DNA of 64,000 nucleotides from Sphingosinicella humi. Lineage in GTDB: Bacteria; Pseudomonadota; Alphaproteobacteria; Sphingomonadales; Sphingomonadaceae. Below are positions 6,402 to 60,152 of the stretch, piece after piece. Location of the stretch: contig NZ_QFFF01000001.1 in NCBI RefSeq assembly GCF_003129465.1, positions 2,093,501 through 2,157,500 of the forward strand. Reading direction: 5' to 3'. Below the pieces are notes generated by a model that saw only the letters and a program-made list of their open reading frames with translations, ran no database searches and was not told the DNA's origin. Positions within the stretch are counted from its first letter, which is position 1; every line of letters begins with the position of its first letter. The position numbers were made by a program, and so were the translations under genes.

Positions 6402-9400
6402 GTGAACGTCGAAACCCCGCGGGATTTTCTCGATCGCCGCCAGCTTGTCAGCGCGCTCAAAAGTCTGAAGCGCGGCGATTTCACCGTCCGCCTGCCCGAG
6501 GATGTTCCCGGGCTCGACAGCGAGATCGCGTCGCTCTTCAATGAAGTGGTCGGGCTCAACGAGCAGATGACCAACGAGTTCAAGCGGCTCGCGGTCGTCG
6601 TCGGCAAGGAAGGCAAGATCGGCCAGCGCGGCCGCGTCAGGGGCGCTTCCGGGGGCTGGGAGGAGAAGCTCAGCGCCGTCAACGAGCTGATCGAGGACAT
6701 GGTCCAGCCGACCATCCAGGTCGCCCGCGTGATCGGCGCCGTCGCCAAGGGCGATCTCAGCCAGACGATGACCGTGGAGATAGACGGGCGACCGCTGCGC
6801 GGCGAGTTCCTGCGCATCGGCGAGGTCGTGAACCGGATGGTCGAGCAGCTCGCCGCCTTCGCCGCCGAGGTGACGCGCGTCGCGCGTGAGGTCGGCACCG
6901 AGGGCAAGCTGGGCGGACAGGCGAAGGTGCAGGGCGTCGCCGGCACCTGGAAGGACCTCACCGACAACGTGAACGCGATGGCGACCAACCTCACCGGCCA
7001 GGTCCGCAACATCGCCGAGGTGACGACGGCGGTGGCGAGTGGTGACCTTTCCAAGAAAATCACCGTGGAAGTGAAGGGCGAGATCCTCGAGCTCAAGAAC
7101 ACCATCAATACGATGGTGGACCAGCTCAACGCCTTCGCCTCCGAGGTGACGCGCGTGGCGCGCGAGGTGGGCACGGAAGGCAAGCTCGGGGGCCAGGCGC
7201 AGGTGCCCGGCGTCGCGGGGACCTGGGCCGACCTTACCAACAATGTGAACCTGATGGCGGACAACCTGACCGGCCAGGTCCGCAACATCGCCGAGGTGAC
7301 GACGGCGGTGGCGTCGGGCGACTTGTCGAAGAAGATCACCGTGGAGGTGAAAGGGGAAATCCTGGAGCTCAAGAACACCATCAATACGATGGTGGATCAG
7401 CTCAATGCCTTCGCCTCGGAAGTGACGCGCGTGGCGCGTGAGGTGGGCACGGAGGGTAAGCTCGGCGGGCAGGCGCAGGTGCCGGGCGTCGCGGGTACCT
7501 GGGCCGATCTTACCAACAATGTGAATTTGATGGCCGACAATCTGACCGGCCAGGTGCGCAACATCGCCGAGGTGACGACGGCGGTGGCCTCGGGTGACCT
7601 TTCCAAGAAGATCACGGTGGAGGTGAAGGGCGAGATATTGGAGCTCAAGAACACCATCAATACGATGGTGGACCAGCTCAACGCCTTCGCCTCGGAAGTG
7701 ACGCGCGTGGCGCGCGAGGTCGGCACCGACGGCAAGCTCGGCGGGCAGGCGACGGTGCCGGGCGTCGCCGGCACCTGGGCGGACCTCACGGACAATGTGA
7801 ACCTGATGGCCGACAACCTGACCGGCCAGGTCCGCAATATCGCCGAGGTGACGACCGCCGTGGCGCGCGGTGATCTTTCCAAGAAGATCACCGTGGAGGT
7901 GCGGGGCGAGATCCTCGAGCTCAAGAACACCATCAATACGATGGTGGACCAGCTCAACGCCTTTGCGAACGAGGTGACCCGCGTGGCGCGCGAGGTGGGT
8001 TCGGAAGGCAAGCTCGGCGGGCAGGCGACCGTGGAAGGCGTCGCCGGCACCTGGAAGGATTTGACCGACAATGTGAACGCGATGGCGGGCAACCTGACGG
8101 GTCAGGTGCGCAACATCGCCGAGGTGACGACCGCGGTGGCGTCGGGCGATCTTTCGAAGAAGATCACCGTGGAAGTGAAGGGCGAAATCCTCGAGCTCAA
8201 GAACACCATCAATACGATGGTGGACCAGCTGAACAGCTTCGCCTCCGAGGTGACGCGCGTGGCGCGCGAGGTGGGGTCGGAGGGCAAGCTCGGCGGCCAG
8301 GCGAAGGTGGAGGGCGTCGGCGGCACCTGGAAGGACCTGACCGACAATGTGAACGAGCTGGCCGCGAACCTCACCGGCCAGGTGCGCAACATCGCCGAGG
8401 TCACCACCGCCGTCGCGCTCGGCGATTTGTCGAAAAAGATCACCGTCGACGTGAAGGGCGAGATTCTCGAGCTCAAGAACACCATCAATACGATGGTGGA
8501 CCAGCTGAACAGCTTCGCGAGCGAAGTGACGCGCGTGGCGCGCGAGGTCGGCACGGAGGGTAAGCTCGGCGGTCAGGCGCAGGTGCGCGGCGTCGCCGGG
8601 ACGTGGAAGGACCTCACCGACAATGTGAACCTGATGGCCGACAATCTGACCGGCCAGGTGCGCAACATCGCCGAGGTCACCACCGCCGTGGCGCGCGGTG
8701 ACCTCTCCAAGAAGATCACGGTCGACGTGAAGGGCGAGATCCTCGAGCTCAAGAACACCATCAACGTCATGGTGGACCAATTGAACGCCTTCGCCGCCGA
8801 GGTGACGCGCGTGGCGCGCGAGGTGGGCACGGAAGGCAAGCTCGGCGGCCAGGCCAAGGTGCCGGGCGTCGCCGGCACCTGGAAGGACCTCACCGACAAC
8901 GTCAACCTGATGGCGACCAACCTCACCAACCAGGTGCGCGGCATCGCCGACGTCGTGACCGCGGTGGCGCAGGGCAATCTGAAGCGCAAGCTGACCGTGG
9001 ACGCCAAGGGCGAGATCGCCGCGCTCGCCGAGACGATCAACTTCATGATCGAGACGCTGTCGACCTTCGGCGACCAGGTGACCAACATGGCCCGCGAAGT
9101 GGGCGTCGAAGGCAAGCTCGGCGGTCAGGCAAGGGTGCCGGGCGCCGCCGGCCTGTGGCGCGACCTCACCGACAACGTGAACCAGCTCGCCGAGAATCTG
9201 ACGAACCAGGTCCGCTCCATCGCGGACGTGGCGACGGCGGTGACCAAGGGCGACCTCACCCGCTCGATCGCGGTGGAAGCCTCGGGCGAGATGGCCGCGC
9301 TCAAGGACAACATCAACGAGATGATCCGCAACCTCAAGGATCAGACCTTGAAGAATGCGGAGCAGGACTGGCTCAAGACCAACCTCGCCCGCTTCTCCCG

Positions 9401-26935: not shown

Positions 26936-27451
26936 ATGACGAAGGCGGACGAGGCGGGGGCGGGTGAGGAGGTGATCTTGTCGGGCGGGCGCAAGCCCCG
27001 GGTGCGGCGGCCGCGACGGGACGGGTGGACGGCGGAGCGGCAGCGGCTGTTCCTCGACGAACTGGCCGCGACCTGCAACGTGCAGGCGGCGGTCCGGGCG
27101 GCGGGGATGAAGCCCGGCATGAGCGTCTATGCGCTGCGCAAGCGGTCGGCGGCGTTCAGGGCGGAGTGGGCGAAGGCGCTGGCGGAGGGCTATGCCAAGC
27201 TGGAGCTGGCGCTGCTCGACCGGGCGATGAACGGAACGGTGAAGACGGTCGAGCGCGGCAACGGCATCGTCGACAAGACTCGCGAATATCCGAACGGATT
27301 GGCGATCCAGCTTTTGAAGCTGCACCGCGAGGGCGCCGCCATGGCCGAGGTGGAGGCTGGGTCCGAGGAAGTGGAGGAAGTTCGCCGGCGAGTCGTCCGC
27401 AAGCTGTCGGCGCTGGAGAAGAGGCTGAGCGGCGAGGATGGCGGGGCATGA
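26936..27451 (+). CDS. terminase small subunit-like DNA-packaging protein
   Basis: Encodes 171 residues. Residues 30-75 (WTAERQRLFLDELAATCNVQ, then AAGMKPGMSVYALRKRS) form a helix-turn-helix like that of phage and gene-transfer-agent small terminases, which recognise or hold DNA for packaging. The C-terminal third is strongly charged and helical (EEVEEVRRRVVRKLSALEKR) and probably oligomerises. The ATG at 26936 has GGAGGGAG upstream. Its last bases overlap the start of the large-subunit gene (ATGA). The assignment leans on the linked large terminase. Confidence 0.75.
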   Translation: MTKADEAGAGEEVILSGGRKPRVRRPRRDGWTAERQRLFLDELAATCNVQAAVRAAGMKPGMSVYALRKRSAAFRAEWAKALAEGYAKLELALLDRAMNGTVKTVERGNGIVDKTREYPNGLAIQLLKLHREGAAMAEVEAGSEEVEEVRRRVVRKLSALEKRLSGEDGGA

Positions 27452-28780
27452 GCGAGCCGCTCATCAGCCTCGAGCAGCTGCGGCTGTTCCTGAACCTTCG
27501 CGACGAGGAGAAGGCGCGGCGGCTGGCGAGCATGAGCTATGCCGACCTTTTGAAGTTCGACGCCGACTTCGAGCTGTGGGCCCATCGCGGGCAGCTGCCG
27601 CCGGCGGGGGAGGGCTGGCGAACCTGGCTGATGAGGGCGGGGCGCGGCTATGGCAAGACGCGGGCCGGGGCGGAGTGGATCACCCGGCTGGCGACCCAGA
27701 AAGGGCGGCGGGTGCGCATCGCCCTGGTCGGCGCGACCGAGGACGAGGTCCGCCAGGTGATGATCGAGGGCGAAAGCGGATTGCTGGCCGTCGGCGCCAA
27801 CCGGGGGCGGACGCCCCGGTGGGAACCCAGCCTCAAGCGTTTGACCTGGCCGGGCGGCAGCCGGGCGTTCGTCGGGCGACAATCCCGACGGTCTCAGAGG
27901 CCCGGCGCATCATTATGCCTGGTGCGACGAGCTCGCCAAGTGGCGGCGCGGCGACGAGACCTGGGACAATCTGCAGCTGACGCTCCGCTGCGGCGAGCGG
28001 CCGCGCGCGCTGGTGACGACGACGCCTCGGCCGATCCCGCTGCTGAACCGGATCGAGGGCGAGAAGCGCACGGTGACGACGCGGGGCCGGACGGCGGACA
28101 ATCCGCATCTTTCCGACGGCTTCTTGCAGGCGATGGTGGATGCCTATGGCGGCACGAGGCTCGGCCGGCAGGAGCTGGATGGGGAGATAGTGGAGGATGT
28201 CGAGGGGGCGCTGTGGACGCGCCGGTTGATCGAGACCTCACGAGCGCCCCTCGACTTCGCTCGGGACGAACGGATCAGGCGAGTGGTGATCGGGGTCGAT
28301 CCGCCGGCTTCGGCGGCGGGGACTTGCGGGATCGTGGCTTGTGGGCTGGGGGCGGATGGGCTCGGCTATGTGCTGGGCGATCATAGCGTGAGCGGAGTCT
28401 CGCCCGAAGGCTGGGCGCGGGCGGTGGCTTATGCGGCGGAGCTGCATGGCGCGGACCGGGTGGTGGCGGAGAGCAACCAGGGCGGGGCGATGGTCGAGAG
28501 CGTGCTGAGGAGCGCCGATATGAGCCTGCCGGTGAAGGCGGCCCATGCGCGGCTCGGCAAGGGGCGGCGGGCGGAGCCGGTGGCGATCCTGTTCGAGAAG
28601 GGCAAGGCGCGGTTCGCCGGCGCCTTTCCGGAGCTGGAGGACCAGCTTTGCGGCCTGACCCTGGGCGGCGGCTATGAAGGACCCGGGCGATCGCCGGACC
28701 GGGCGGACGCGATGGTGTGGGCGATGGCCGAGCTGATGCTGGCGCCGGTGCGGGCGGAGCCGCGGATCAGGGTGTTGTGA
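27448..28780 (+). pseudogene. terminase large subunit, frameshifted
   Basis: This is a GTA/phage-type large terminase (TerL) broken into two frames. The first part from 27448 has the Walker A motif RAGRGYGKTRAGAEW and reads to LTWPGGSRAFV. At about 27873 the frame changes, and the second frame resumes with GDNPDGLRGPAHHYAWCDELAKW (Walker B-like) and TTTPRPIPLLNRI, then the nuclease residues in VIGVDPPAS, VAESNQGG and SPDRADAM. Comparison with related terminases from memory suggests that five bases encoding most of a Tyr-Ser pair were lost. A 36-bp piece of repeat B is in-frame at 28237-28272. No portal, protease or capsid gene follows, so this is probably a relic. A sequencing error is the alternative explanation. 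Confidence 0.8.
28237..28272 (+). repeat. half of repeat family B inside the terminase gene
   Basis: Thirty-six bases (12 codons) contain CCTCGACTTCGCTCGGGACG, the 3' arm of the palindrome found in full in glyS at 58991-59067. It is in-frame and encodes SRAPLDFARDER between the linker and nuclease parts of the terminase. Confidence 0.8.
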
Positions 28781-28794
28781 GGGGGTGCTTTGGG

Positions 28795-28909
28795 GTCATC
28801 CGGGCGGAAGCGGGGGGCCGAGAACGCGGAGAAGGTGGCAAGGATGACGGGTTCGTCGCCTACCCGGTTACGAGGGTGTTCTTGGGTCCCGGCGTTCGCC
28901 GGGATGACG
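28795..28909. repeat. family A REPIN-like repeat
   Basis: The first arm (GTCATCCGGGCGGAAGCGGG) is diverged; the second (CCCGGCGTTCGCCGGGATGA) is well conserved. It follows the terminase stop by 15 bases and runs straight into a 20-bp tandem array. Confidence 0.75.
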
Positions 28910-29002
28910 GGGCCTGGTGTTTGATGACGGGGCCTGGTGCTTGATGACGGGGCCTGGTGCTTGATGACGGGGCCTAGTGCTTGATGACGGGAGCTGGTGC
29001 TT
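28902..29002. repeat. 20-bp tandem repeat, about five copies
   Basis: The unit TTGATGACGGGGCCTGGTGC recurs with one or two changes at 28921, 28941, 28961 and 28981, and a partial first copy overlaps the end of the family A element (GATGACGG). The array seems to have grown from the repeat's terminal GATGACG by slippage or replication error. Confidence 0.9.
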
Positions 29003-43020: not shown

Positions 43021-43192
43021 GACCCTCCCCGTCGTGAAGCGATGGGGAGGGGGACCATGTGTAGCATGGTGGAGGGGTGGCTGCCGTGTGACCCGGAAGT
43101 TCGCGCGCGATCCCTCGATGCTTGCGCCTTCTACCCCTCCACCAGCTTTCAGCTGGTCCCCCTCCCCACGAGCTTCGCTCGCAGGGAGGATG
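43021..43192. repeat. family D inverted repeat
   Basis: Arms related to GAGGGGGACCATGTGTAGCA and its inverse CCAGCTTTCAGCTGGTCCCC, with flanking CCTCCCC/GGGGAGG blocks, make a bipartite palindrome of about 170 bases. The same family occurs at 50116-50279 and 55602-55751. Confidence 0.75.
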
Positions 43193-50100: not shown

Positions 50101-50115
50101 GGGTGCTCCTCTTAT

Positions 50116-50279
50116 CCTCCTTCCGGGCGAAGCCCGTGGGGAGGGGGACTGCGTGAACGCGGTGGAGGGGTAAAAGGCGGCGGATCAGAGGATCGCACGC
50201 GACCCGTCGACCTCCCGGCCCTTGCCCCTTCACCACCCTGCGGGTGGTCCCCCTCCCCACCGCTTCGCAGCAAGGAGGA
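50116..50279. repeat. family D inverted repeat
   Basis: Bipartite palindrome: CCTCCTTCCGGGCGAAGCCC and GTGGGGAGGGGGACTGCG on one side, CTGCGGGTGGTCCCCCTCCC and AGCAAGGAGG on the other. It fills most of the spacer between ychF and the divergent glutathione S-transferase gene. Confidence 0.75.
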
Positions 50280-53290: not shown

Positions 53291-53407
53291 CGTCATCCCG
53301 GCGAAAGCCGGGATCCAAGAACACGGCGTTGATCGTTAGAGCGATGAGCGGATCGCCTTGATCTTCTGATCCCGTGTTCTTGGGTCCCGGCTTTCGCCGG
53401 GATGACG
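53291..53407. repeat. family A REPIN-like repeat
   Basis: Arms CGTCATCCCGGCGAAAGCCG... and ...GGCTTTCGCCGGGATGACG, both close to consensus, sit between convergent cyclophilin and oxygenase genes, with a 50-base spacer. Confidence 0.92.
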
Positions 53408-55601: not shown

Positions 55602-55751
55602 TCCTCCCCGGAACGGGGAGGGGGACCGCGACGCGAAGCGGCGTGGTGGAGGGGGCGACGGACTCGGCGTCAGCTCGGCCGGTGCCTGGCTCGCTTCACT
55701 CGCGACCCCTCCACCATGCTGCGCATGGTCCCCCTCCCCGTTCCGGGGAGG
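55602..55751. repeat. family D inverted repeat
   Basis: Outer arms CCTCCCCGGAACGGGGAGG and its inverse CCTCCCCGTTCCGGGGAGG, with inner CGACGCGAAGCGGCGTGGTG and CACCATGCTGCGCATGGTCC blocks, form a 150-base bipartite palindrome between rplY and the TraB-type gene. Confidence 0.85.
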
Positions 55752-57677: not shown

Positions 57678-57815
57678 GTTCGCGCAGAGACGCAGAGACG
57701 CAGAGGAAGCCAATGCCTGTCCCGGCGCGAAGCGCCTTTTCGTTCAACAGCAGAGAAAAAGGTTCGGAATGGGCACTTGCTCAGCCTCTCTGCGTCTCCG
57801 CGTCTCTGCGCGAAC
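57678..57815. repeat. family E inverted repeat between glyQ and glyS
   Basis: Arms GTTCGCGCAGAGACGCAGAG... (57678-57706) and its inverse ...CTCCGCGTCTCTGCGCGAAC (57785-57815) match over about 29 bases with one or two changes, separated by about 80 bases. The arms have an internal CGCAGAGA direct repeat. It splits what is usually a tight two-gene unit. Confidence 0.9.
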
Positions 57816-57857: not shown

Positions 57858-60152
57858 ATGTCAGGTTTCCTCCTCGAGCTCCTCTCAGAAGAAATCCCCG
57901 CCCGCATGCAGGCGAAGGCGTCGGCCGATCTCGCCCGCCTGTTCTCCGAGCAGCTGACCGCCGCCGGCCTCAAGGCCGAGGCCATCGAAACCTACGCCAC
58001 CCCCCGCCGCCTCGCCCTCATCGCCCGCGGCCTCCCTGCCGAAACCGAAGCGGTGAGCGAGGAGATCAAGGGGCCCCGCGCCAGCGCCCCGCCGCAGGCG
58101 CTCGAAGGGTTCCTCAGAAAGACCGGCCTCACCCGCGAGCAGCTCGTCGAGCGCGACGGCGTTCTCTTCGCGATAATCGACAAGCCCGGCCGCAAGACCG
58201 CCGACGTCCTCGCCGAAGCAATCCCGCAGATCATCCGCGCCTTCCCGTGGCCCAAGTCGATGCGCTGGGGCGCCGCTTCGCAGTCGACCGAGAGCCTGCG
58301 CTGGGTCCGCCCGCTGCAGGGCATCGTCGCCATCCTCGGCGAGGATGTCGTGGAGTTCGAGGTCGCCGGCGTCAGGTCGGGCGCTGCGACCGTCGGCCAC
58401 CGCTTCCACCATCCCGGCATCATCACGATCGGCAGCGCCCACGATTATGCCGAGAAGCTGCGCGCCTGCCACGTCATCATCGATCCGGCCGAACGCCGCC
58501 GCATCATCGCGGAGGGCGCCGCCCGGGCCGCCGCCGCTGCCGGCTTGGCGCTGGTCGAGGATGAAGGCCTGATCCACGAAAATGCCGGCCTCACCGAATG
58601 GCCGGTGCCGCTGCTCGGCGCCTTCGACCCGGCCTTCCTCGACGTTCCGCGCGAGGTGATCCAGCTCACCATGCGCACCAACCAGAAATATTTCGCGCTG
58701 ACGGATGGGGAGGGACGCCTTGCCCCCAACTTCGTGTGCGTCGCCAATATCGAGGCGTCCGACGGCGGCCGGGCCATTGTCGCCGGCAACGAAAAGGTCC
58801 TCGCCGCCCGCCTCTCCGACGCAAAGTTCTTCTGGGAGCAGGACCTCAAGGTCCCCTTGGAGGAGCAGGCGAAGAAGCTCGACCAGATCGTCTTCCACGA
58901 AAAGCTCGGCACCGTCGCCGACAAGGTCGAGCGCGTGGCGAAGCTGGCGCGGTGGCTGGTCGAGGAAGGCATAGTCGGCGCGCAGGACTCCGTTCGTCCC
59001 GAGCGAAGTCGAGGGGCGCCGGCACAGACTCCTCACGAGCGTCCCTCGACTACGCTCGGGACGAACGAGGTGGGCGATCTTGCCCAGATGGCCGAAACCG
59101 CCGCTCGCCTCGCCAAGGCCGATCTCGTCACCGGCATGGTCGGCGAGTTCCCCGAGCTTCAGGGTCTCATCGGCGGCTATCTCGCCCGCGCACAGGGCCA
59201 TGGCGACGCCATCGCCGACGCCATCCGCGACCATTACAAGCCGGTAGGCCAGGGCGACGAGGTGCCCACCGCGCCGGTGACGGTGGCGGTGAGTTTGGCG
59301 GACAAGCTGGATAGTCTCGGCGCCTTCTTCGCCATCGACCAGCAGCCGACGGGATCTCGCGATCCTTTTGCACTACGGCGCTCCGCTCTCGGCGTCATTC
59401 GCCTGATCGTGGAAAACGGTCTCCGCTTTCCCCTCGCTACCGTTCGCCCTGAGCTTGTCGAAGGGCAATCCTACTTCGGTCGGGAAGACGAAAGCAGGGC
59501 TTCGACAGGCTCAGCCCGAACGGACTGGTGGGAGGAGCTTCATGACTTCTTCGCCGATCGCCTCAAGGTCCAGCAGCGCGAAGCCGGCGTTCGCCACGAT
59601 CTGATCGACGCCGTCTTCGCCCTTGGTGGAGAGGACGATCTCGTCCGGCTGCTGGCGCGGGTGAAGGCGCTGCAGGCCTTTGTCGAAACGTCCGAAGGCA
59701 CCGATCTCCTCGCCGGCTACAAGCGGGCCGCCAACATCCTCAAAAAGGAGGCGTGGGGCAACGGCGTCATCCCGGCGGAAGGCGGGAGCCAAGAGCAGTT
59801 GGGCGGCCCGGCAGGCGCCAGCATTTCCAGCTCGGAGGTCTTGGGTCCCGGCGTTCGCCGGGATGACGAGGGGGGGCAGAATTCCCTTCCCTATACGCCT
59901 GAAAATGAGGAAGCTGCCTTGATCGCCGCGCTTGAGGCGGCCGAGCCTCGTGCCCGGGCGGCGGTGGAGGCGGAGGATTTCGAGGGGGCCATGGCGGCGC
60001 TCGCCAGTCTTCGCGCGCCGGTGGACGCGTTTTTCGACAAGGTGACCGTCAATGATCCGGACCAGGACAAGCGCACCGCCCGCCTCAATCTGCTCGCCCG
60101 CATGCGGGCGGCGGTGCATCAGGTCGCGGATTTCTCGAAGATCGAGGGCTGA
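57858..60152 (+). CDS. glyS: glycyl-tRNA synthetase beta subunit with three in-frame palindromic insertions
   Basis: Encodes 764 residues, about 70-90 more than usual for GlyS. The beta subunit helps to bind tRNA and is needed for activity with GlyQ. Family blocks are intact: MSGFLLELLSEEIPARMQAK, PWPKSMRWGAASQSTESLRW, LTMRTNQKYFALTD, LVTGMVGEFPELQGLIGGY, DKLDSLGAFFAIDQQPTGSR and APVDAFFDKVTVNDPD. Between blocks lie three foreign stretches, each coded by a different palindromic repeat: about residues 378-404 (RPERSRGAPAQTPHERPSTT), 528-556 (RPELVEGQSYFGREDESRAS) and 636-672 (VIPAEGGSQEQLGGPAGASI). All are in-frame and none has a stop. The gene therefore appears functional, with the insertions as surface loops. 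Confidence 0.95.
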   Translation: MSGFLLELLSEEIPARMQAKASADLARLFSEQLTAAGLKAEAIETYATPRRLALIARGLPAETEAVSEEIKGPRASAPPQALEGFLRKTGLTREQLVERDGVLFAIIDKPGRKTADVLAEAIPQIIRAFPWPKSMRWGAASQSTESLRWVRPLQGIVAILGEDVVEFEVAGVRSGAATVGHRFHHPGIITIGSAHDYAEKLRACHVIIDPAERRRIIAEGAARAAAAAGLALVEDEGLIHENAGLTEWPVPLLGAFDPAFLDVPREVIQLTMRTNQKYFALTDGEGRLAPNFVCVANIEASDGGRAIVAGNEKVLAARLSDAKFFWEQDLKVPLEEQAKKLDQIVFHEKLGTVADKVERVAKLARWLVEEGIVGAQDSVRPERSRGAPAQTPHERPSTTLGTNEVGDLAQMAETAARLAKADLVTGMVGEFPELQGLIGGYLARAQGHGDAIADAIRDHYKPVGQGDEVPTAPVTVAVSLADKLDSLGAFFAIDQQPTGSRDPFALRRSALGVIRLIVENGLRFPLATVRPELVEGQSYFGREDESRASTGSARTDWWEELHDFFADRLKVQQREAGVRHDLIDAVFALGGEDDLVRLLARVKALQAFVETSEGTDLLAGYKRAANILKKEAWGNGVIPAEGGSQEQLGGPAGASISSSEVLGPGVRRDDEGGQNSLPYTPENEEAALIAALEAAEPRARAAVEAEDFEGAMAALASLRAPVDAFFDKVTVNDPDQDKRTARLNLLARMRAAVHQVADFSKIEG
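58991..59067. repeat. family B palindrome, in-frame in glyS
   Basis: CGTTCGTCCCGAGCGAAGTC... pairs with ...GACTACGCTCGGGACGAACG across a short spacer. It encodes about 26 residues starting RPERSRGAP and ending PSTTLGTNE. A half copy is in the terminase gene at 28237-28272. Confidence 0.9.
59441..59522. repeat. family C palindrome, in-frame in glyS
   Basis: CGTTCGCCCTGAGCTTGTCG... pairs with ...CGACAGGCTCAGCCCGAACG. It encodes about 27 residues (RPELVEGQSYFGREDESRAS and STGSART) in the linker before the DALR-like tail. Confidence 0.9.
59765..59868. repeat. family A REPIN-like repeat, in-frame in glyS
   Basis: The first arm (CGTCATCCCGGCGGAAGGCG) is mutated, the second (CCCGGCGTTCGCCGGGATGA) is conserved. 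It is translated as VIPAEGGSQEQ ... LGPGVRRDDEGG. Several changes relative to the consensus suggest it has been there for some time. Confidence 0.9.

Follow-up and report, generated by a model that had tools for sequence, protein, structure and literature searches.

The glyS gene of the window, by which we mean the whole 64,000-nt stretch of DNA analysed here, carries three in-frame palindromic elements, and the site of the first, S1, has been occupied by unrelated families of such elements across the sphingomonads. This recurrent turnover of several families at single loops, in GlyS across the family and in UvrA within the genus, is the new part of our findings; in-frame REPs in tRNA synthetases and in uvrA are already published, so the kind of phenomenon is known. 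We found no published report of the GlyS hotspot, in a literature that covered few subscription journals. The conversion of repeats to protein has so far been argued mostly from isolated insertions. In GlyS, a loop of a single-copy and apparently essential enzyme has been filled, emptied and refilled many times by families unrelated to one another, and relatives display every state.

Three in-frame palindromes in glyS

The gene (57858..60152, + strand) encodes a glycine--tRNA ligase beta subunit of 764 aa, identified by a TIGR00211 match (E 5e-216). The 3.03-Mb genome (G000) holds one full-length glyS locus only and no dimeric GlyRS above the family cut-off; the decorated gene is therefore single-copy and presumably essential. 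Element B, at S1, is a 77-nt inverted-repeat unit (58991..59067; translation SVRPERSRGAPAQTPHERPSTTLGTNE) with arms at 58991-59019 and 59039-59067 that are 93% complementary around a 19-nt spacer. Element C, within the natively variable site S2, is an 84-nt unit (59440..59523; translation TVRPELVEGQSYFGREDESRASTGSARTD). Its arms, 59440-59463 and 59500-59523, were absent from the first inverted-repeat listing and were found by local inverted-repeat alignment, with a score of 18 against a maximum of 10 among 15 codon shuffles. Element A, at S3, is a 104-nt head-to-head dimer of CGTC-1 REPs (59765..59868; translation VIPAEGGSQEQLGGPAGASISSSEVLGPGVRRDD), the arms of which (59765-59794 and 59839-59868) are 87% complementary. 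Single-strand folding z-scores against dinucleotide shuffles were -10.4 for B, -6.1 for C and -8.5 for A, which excludes a chance origin of the palindromes. The glyQ-glyS spacer (57679-57814) holds a further palindrome of another kind, with arms GCGCAGAGACGCAGAGACGCAGAGG and CTCTGCGTCTCCGCGTCTCTGCGC.

An earlier note on this DNA had described three stop-free palindromes in the glyS frame, flanked on each side by conserved GlyS blocks, and our analysis agrees: the coordinates are correct and the gene is a single open reading frame. Alignment of E. coli GlyS (7yse) to the window protein gave three pieces (query 4-370, 410-631 and 707-762); its breaks correspond to the B and A inserts, C falls within the second piece, and the alignment resumes past all three. 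C does recur, with two full-length copies in the genome, the second at G000:C1:239731, but its site is a natively variable loop of GlyS. In complete alphaproteobacterial homologues, S2 ranges from about 14 to 114 aa, with little conserved sequence and mostly without palindromes. A known RNA family proposed over C and its 3' flank, Rfam RF02901 at 59435-59591, was rejected: the match reached 33.5 bits where the gathering score is 97, and we take this sub-threshold match as chance or repeat content.

Because 77 nt is not a multiple of three, the frame at B was either adjusted at insertion or kept by selection. The strong hairpins inside the message might suggest that the inserts are removed from the RNA or bypassed by the ribosome. 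However, a skipped sequence needs neither frame nor freedom from stops, and every insert has both, in tens of cases, which makes this explanation hardly conceivable. We infer instead that the protein segments encoded by the inserts are made and tolerated.

Copies of the elements across the genome

The earlier note had placed A and B elsewhere in the window as well and had made recurrence in the genome the test of whether the elements are mobile repeats. Both points held. We counted 136 element A arms in G000, against 0 with a reversed-pattern control, and at least 38 full-length copies of B, a lower bound because 40 of 90 first-look candidates were scored in the full-length count of B and C. 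Most B copies were 84-92% identical to the glyS copy, spacer included. The idea that C is a high-copy family like A and B was rejected, since it has its two full-length copies only. The flanks of the 28 B copies that we read differ, with only a weak preference for a pyrimidine before and a purine after the unit, and no target duplication was evident at these 28 copies, which separates B from MITEs with target-site duplication.

The half copy of B that the earlier note saw in the terminase gene is real: a solo half at 28248..28272 (- strand) matches a B arm exactly and lies in the frame of the terminase C-terminal domain (Terminase_6C, PF17289; frame 28013-28780). This terminase large-subunit gene (27025-28780) probably has a frameshift somewhere from about 27870 to 28013, as its N- and C-terminal domains do not share a reading frame. 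B is also found in frame in three other genes of the genome: a 2-oxoacid dehydrogenase E2 (L127:617-1831, - strand), where it falls in the linker that joins the lipoyl domain to the E3-binding domain; an SDR oxidoreductase (L135:893-1747, - strand); and UvrA, at residue 258 of the reading frame (L175). As a comparison copy for A we used a well-preserved dimer at 53291..53407 (I18), with 97% complementary arms, which has stops in five of the six reading frames; the glyS copy of A is stop-free in its frame.

Other repeats were seen in the window. At 43024-43191, 50114-50278 and 55702-55739 there are copies that resemble the CT-rich D elements (GGGGAGGGGGACC..) found at glyS S1 in other species. 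Tandem 20-nt repeats (GATGACGGGGCCTGGTGCTT) at 28883-28991 directly adjoin an arm of an A element, an arrangement that looks like amplification of part of the arm together with its flank. Nine direct repeats with a period of 276 nt, 69-89% identical to the first, lie at 6836-9343 and probably encode a repeat protein.

S1, S2 and S3 across sphingomonads

We aligned 110 alphaproteobacterial GlyS sequences and cut out the three variable sites; S1 scoring and the tree used 92 rows. Among these, 48 hold a palindromic element or its remnant at S1 and 44 are empty. The empty state native to sphingomonads reads like VEEGIVKGADP; thus the insert residues are missing at that point in relatives without the repeat, a result that answers the test for native loops set by the earlier note. 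The S1 elements represent about four super-families. CGTC-type elements read ..TPAKAG.. or ..TPDLIRGPA.., B-type elements read ..RPERSRG.., and the CT-rich types are D (16 residues, omitted here), E (PSPLRGEGRGEG..) and F. The inverted-repeat score was above all 15 codon shuffles in 41 S1 segments; the arms of L042 and L035 are weak palindromes, labelled from sequence resemblance. Solo-hairpin remnants are present at S1 in L024, L025, L096 and L104.

Inserts at S1 are repeated at full length in their own genomes in G008, G006, G060, G061 and G063, with partial matches in G064; G062 and G065 gave no second full copy at the threshold used. Strong palindromes occur at S3 in 20 rows; at S2 they are confined to two sequences, the window GlyS and L097. 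Many sphingomonads have different families at S1 and S3. The hotspot is therefore not a property of this genome, as the earlier note had implied, and is instead a family-wide recurrence at two GlyS loops, S1 and S3.

Turnover on the gene tree

The tree, built from the GlyS core after removal of the variable sites, is a gene tree from a quick search, and the S1 family labels were set by eye; the numbers of changes are therefore approximate, with gains and losses counted together. With this in mind, nine S1 states required at least 39 changes on the tree, and four super-families plus the empty state, with remnants scored as filled, at least 38. Presence or absence at S1 required at least 22 changes, at least 15 of them forced by well-supported branches. 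Sister sequences carry different families (L054 with A and L060 with E; L040 with A2 and L097 with F). Furthermore, E and D each use three frames at S1 and A2 uses two, which makes vertical descent impossible without compensating indels.

These counts bear on whether the inserts are ordinary lineage-specific palindromic loops of GlyS, or one ancestral insertion inherited vertically. The natural length variation of S2 and a native alternative insert at S3 (..IPQTGEEDPLVLVEEP..) would agree with such an origin, and an old first insertion would account for the fixed left edge VEEGIV and for shared offsets. It is contradicted by exact DNA units that recur across the genome, by unrelated families in different frames at one point and by the number of changes on the tree. 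For A and B this explanation is already largely refuted, and overall we consider it very improbable.

The junctions in L009, L013 and L054, where a truncated older CGTC start (GTCACCCC) stands ahead of a second complete element, are consistent with serial occupancy and may record it. Many filled S1 sites read VEEGIVT, and empty ones have K, P or R in place of T; as a trace of serial occupancy this is suggestive only. A single offset (23) is common to most D copies and could reflect older shared inserts with later replacement.

The arms of shared inserts were more alike than the genes that carry them. In L098 and L100, which share one E insert, the arms have 0 differences in about 78 nt and the spacer is 70% identical; elsewhere in the gene, four-fold sites differ by 24% and synonymous pS is 0.35. 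In L022 and L054 the arms are 100% identical and the core 76%. Arm identity in L098 and L100 despite the four-fold divergence indicates that the arms do not evolve as plain neutral protein sequence. It could have arisen by gene conversion with genomic copies, by recent re-insertion or by selection on the hairpin, two pairs being too few for a decision.

Selection on the hairpin would mean that the palindromes are kept for a function, either as hairpins in the glyS message or DNA (acting in translation pausing or mRNA stability, or as gyrase or nucleoid sites) or as peptide loops with a regulatory role on GlyRS. Both pairs with identical arms would fit such a role, as would the predicted folding energy of B (-62 kcal/mol), and effects of REPs in repair genes have been speculated on (PMC3733652). 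However, just two pairs speak for it, conversion or recent re-insertion of the same family would keep arms identical equally well, and a functional element is difficult to reconcile with 44 of 92 rows being empty, with families that swap freely and with spacer amino acids that diverge. We therefore regard a retained function as unlikely.

A second loop in UvrA and the density of elements

Other genes were compared within the genus. The 23 glyS genes contained 21 palindromes with a score of 17 or more in 55 kb. Genus pheT and leuS contained 0 in 55 kb each (codon shuffles, 0), and the neighbours of glyS likewise had none, with 0 in 73 kb of glyQ and 0 in 138 kb of ppdK. The 66 kb of uvrA contained 11 palindromes. 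Ten of these lie at a single site (residues ~245-258), where families B, D, E and F are in frame in about ten genus genomes (loci L174-L194). A palindrome at UvrA residue ~584 (L182) is probably due to chance. A leuS palindrome (L226) proved to be an artefact of taking the longest ORF, with 0 in a region-based recount, and large leuS and pheT "inserts" were discarded as being, at least in part, antisense ORFs taken as longest.

The earlier note had offered tolerance of the protein or a bias of insertion as the alternatives, and this is the right pair. S1 contains 6.8 strong palindromes per kb of non-element sequence, compared to 3.8 and 0.23 in the two flanking spacers, and the start points of D, E and F at S1 lie mostly within 18-30 nt of one point. 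The higher density together with the clustered starts makes some bias of insertion or retention likely; were tolerance the only factor, S1 should not exceed non-coding DNA in density. One form of such bias is targeting at the DNA level, in which S1, S3 and the UvrA site would hold a sequence or structure preferred by the insertion machinery and tolerance would only decide survival. An excess over neighbouring spacers and starts of several families around the same codon are what targeting would produce, and in L040, L041 and L045 the CGTC tag of the element coincides with a native ATCGTC. Yet the families have no common termini, the full spread of start points is 13-51 nt, the frames differ, and the B flanks within one genome show nothing beyond their weak pyrimidine/purine preference. 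We hold targeting to be possible but doubtful.

Structure of the decorated protein

An AlphaFold2 model of the window GlyS, built with 36 sequences, had a mean pLDDT of 85.7. Values below 50 were found at residues 378-397 (element B), 541-544 and 547-550 (element C) and 636-673 (element A). These low-confidence inserts sit between intact helices in the AlphaFold model, with the flanking core mostly above 90. In Foldseek, GlyS chains matched over the whole length and the fold matched 7yse/9a71. The earlier note's proposal that the inserts form extra loops is thus supported by the model, in which they are placed outside the folded core, and the protein segments of B, C and A are predicted to be disordered. 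As in RPE-type insertions, the inserts would lie in flexible loops compatible with folding, to judge by pLDDT and the retained GlyS fold, that is, by prediction only.

By alignment, S1 corresponds to E. coli GlyS residues ~378-384 and S3 to ~594-632, and from these residue numbers we assign S1 to the HD domain and S3 to the anticodon-binding one. GlyS contacts tRNA at 406, 473-482, 585-588 and 652-658 (PMC9908026). Judged from aligned positions, the S1 and S3 inserts flank the contacts given there and would not replace them.

Proposed mechanism

We think it likely that the elements are REP/RPE-like non-autonomous dimers that insert widely and survive in extendable loops, S1 being a dock at which elements are replaced. 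B, C and A each have two short hairpin-forming arms in inverted order on either side of a spacer and carry no gene. Copies would insert around the genome, mostly between genes; those within a gene would survive only where the frame is kept, no stop is brought in and the protein can lengthen the loop, and the survivors would be translated as a disordered loop. S1, S3 and one UvrA loop may satisfy these needs so well that they become docking sites, where unrelated families would arrive, decay to a solo hairpin or be replaced near the same point. Tolerance of the protein would be the main filter, and replacement would proceed via serial insertion and deletion.

What moves the elements was also considered. 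We found no candidate mobilising transposase in the genome. A RAYT-type transposase was rejected as the mobiliser since G000 has no PF01797 (Y1_Tnp) match; Y1_Tnp is also missing in 15 of 26 genus genomes, several of which have a filled S1.

A bolder version is that S1 and the UvrA loop are true docks, preferred by unrelated families, with replacement faster than in non-coding DNA and with genomic copies as donors in gene conversions that keep the arms identical. We put this forward tentatively, as the less probable course. If true, a loop of a housekeeping protein would be continually rewritten by the resident repeat population.

S1 of GlyS is a natural replicated experiment on tolerance versus targeting, on element turnover and on movement without a recognised transposase. 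In addition, glyS is a natural record of mobile DNA turning into protein sequence, translation being predicted. Through these inserts, conserved proteins hold peptides (VIPAKAG.., RPERSRG.., STGSART..) that are odd but probably translated and that should be masked in annotation and phylogenetics.

Comparison with known systems

CGTC-1 REPs have a CGTC tag, an 8-bp stem starting with AT, a 4-nt loop and a CCA tail (Di Nocera et al. 2013, PMC3733652). Intact A copies in the window, such as that at 53291, have the same layout (CGTC-ATCCCGGC-GAAA-GCCGGGAT-CCA); in the glyS copy the left arm is degenerate. A thus resembles CGTC-1 REPs in tag, stem, loop and tail, in its predominantly head-to-head dimers (as in the window), in its many copies (the 136 arms) and in having no associated transposase. 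By contrast, the arms of B (CGTTCGTCCCGAGCGAAGTCGAGGG) and C (CCGTTCGCCCTGAGCTTGTCGAAGGGC) are without the CGTC tag and the 8-9 bp AT stem, and families B, C, D, E and F all differ from the CGTC layout of that paper.

The inserts share several features with the RPEs of Rickettsia, which are reported as multicopy palindromes that lie in frame within housekeeping genes and are probably translated into loops (Ogata et al. 2000, 2002, as summarised in PMC10969869 and PMC3733652). RPE-4 and RPE-6 are themselves CGTC REPs (PMC10969869, PMC3733652). B, C and A are likewise multicopy (C with two full-length copies), in frame and stop-free in a conserved housekeeping gene and missing in orthologues, and their loops are probably translated. 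Unlike RPEs, they occur in free-living, GC-rich sphingomonads, with several unrelated families in one gene and repeated replacement at one point that is resolved over 92 aligned sequences. The earlier note's view that in-frame palindromes are known mainly from Rickettsia is not supported: PMC3733652 gives intragenic REPs in many species, among them E. litoralis and S. alaskensis, whose tRNA synthetases carry them, and others with REPs in uvrA genes, and it proposes that such insertions are tolerated in loops. That paper also poses the puzzle of why REPs are found in repair genes, uvrA included, and our results point to a specific UvrA loop.

The REPIN/RAYT system (GTAG REPs; PMC3116915, PMC2817692) is similar in its inverted pair of short hairpins, its discrete boundaries and the lack of a visible target duplication; our elements differ from it in having neither the GTAG tag nor a Y1_Tnp gene, here or in those 15 genus genomes. 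In the text of PMC3733652, no single loop is described that is occupied in turn by many unrelated families, as S1 appears to be. That paper does report different REPs at about the same site of recB in X. campestris and X. oryzae. The recB case concerns two species only, whereas S1 of GlyS involves dozens of sequences and about four super-families.
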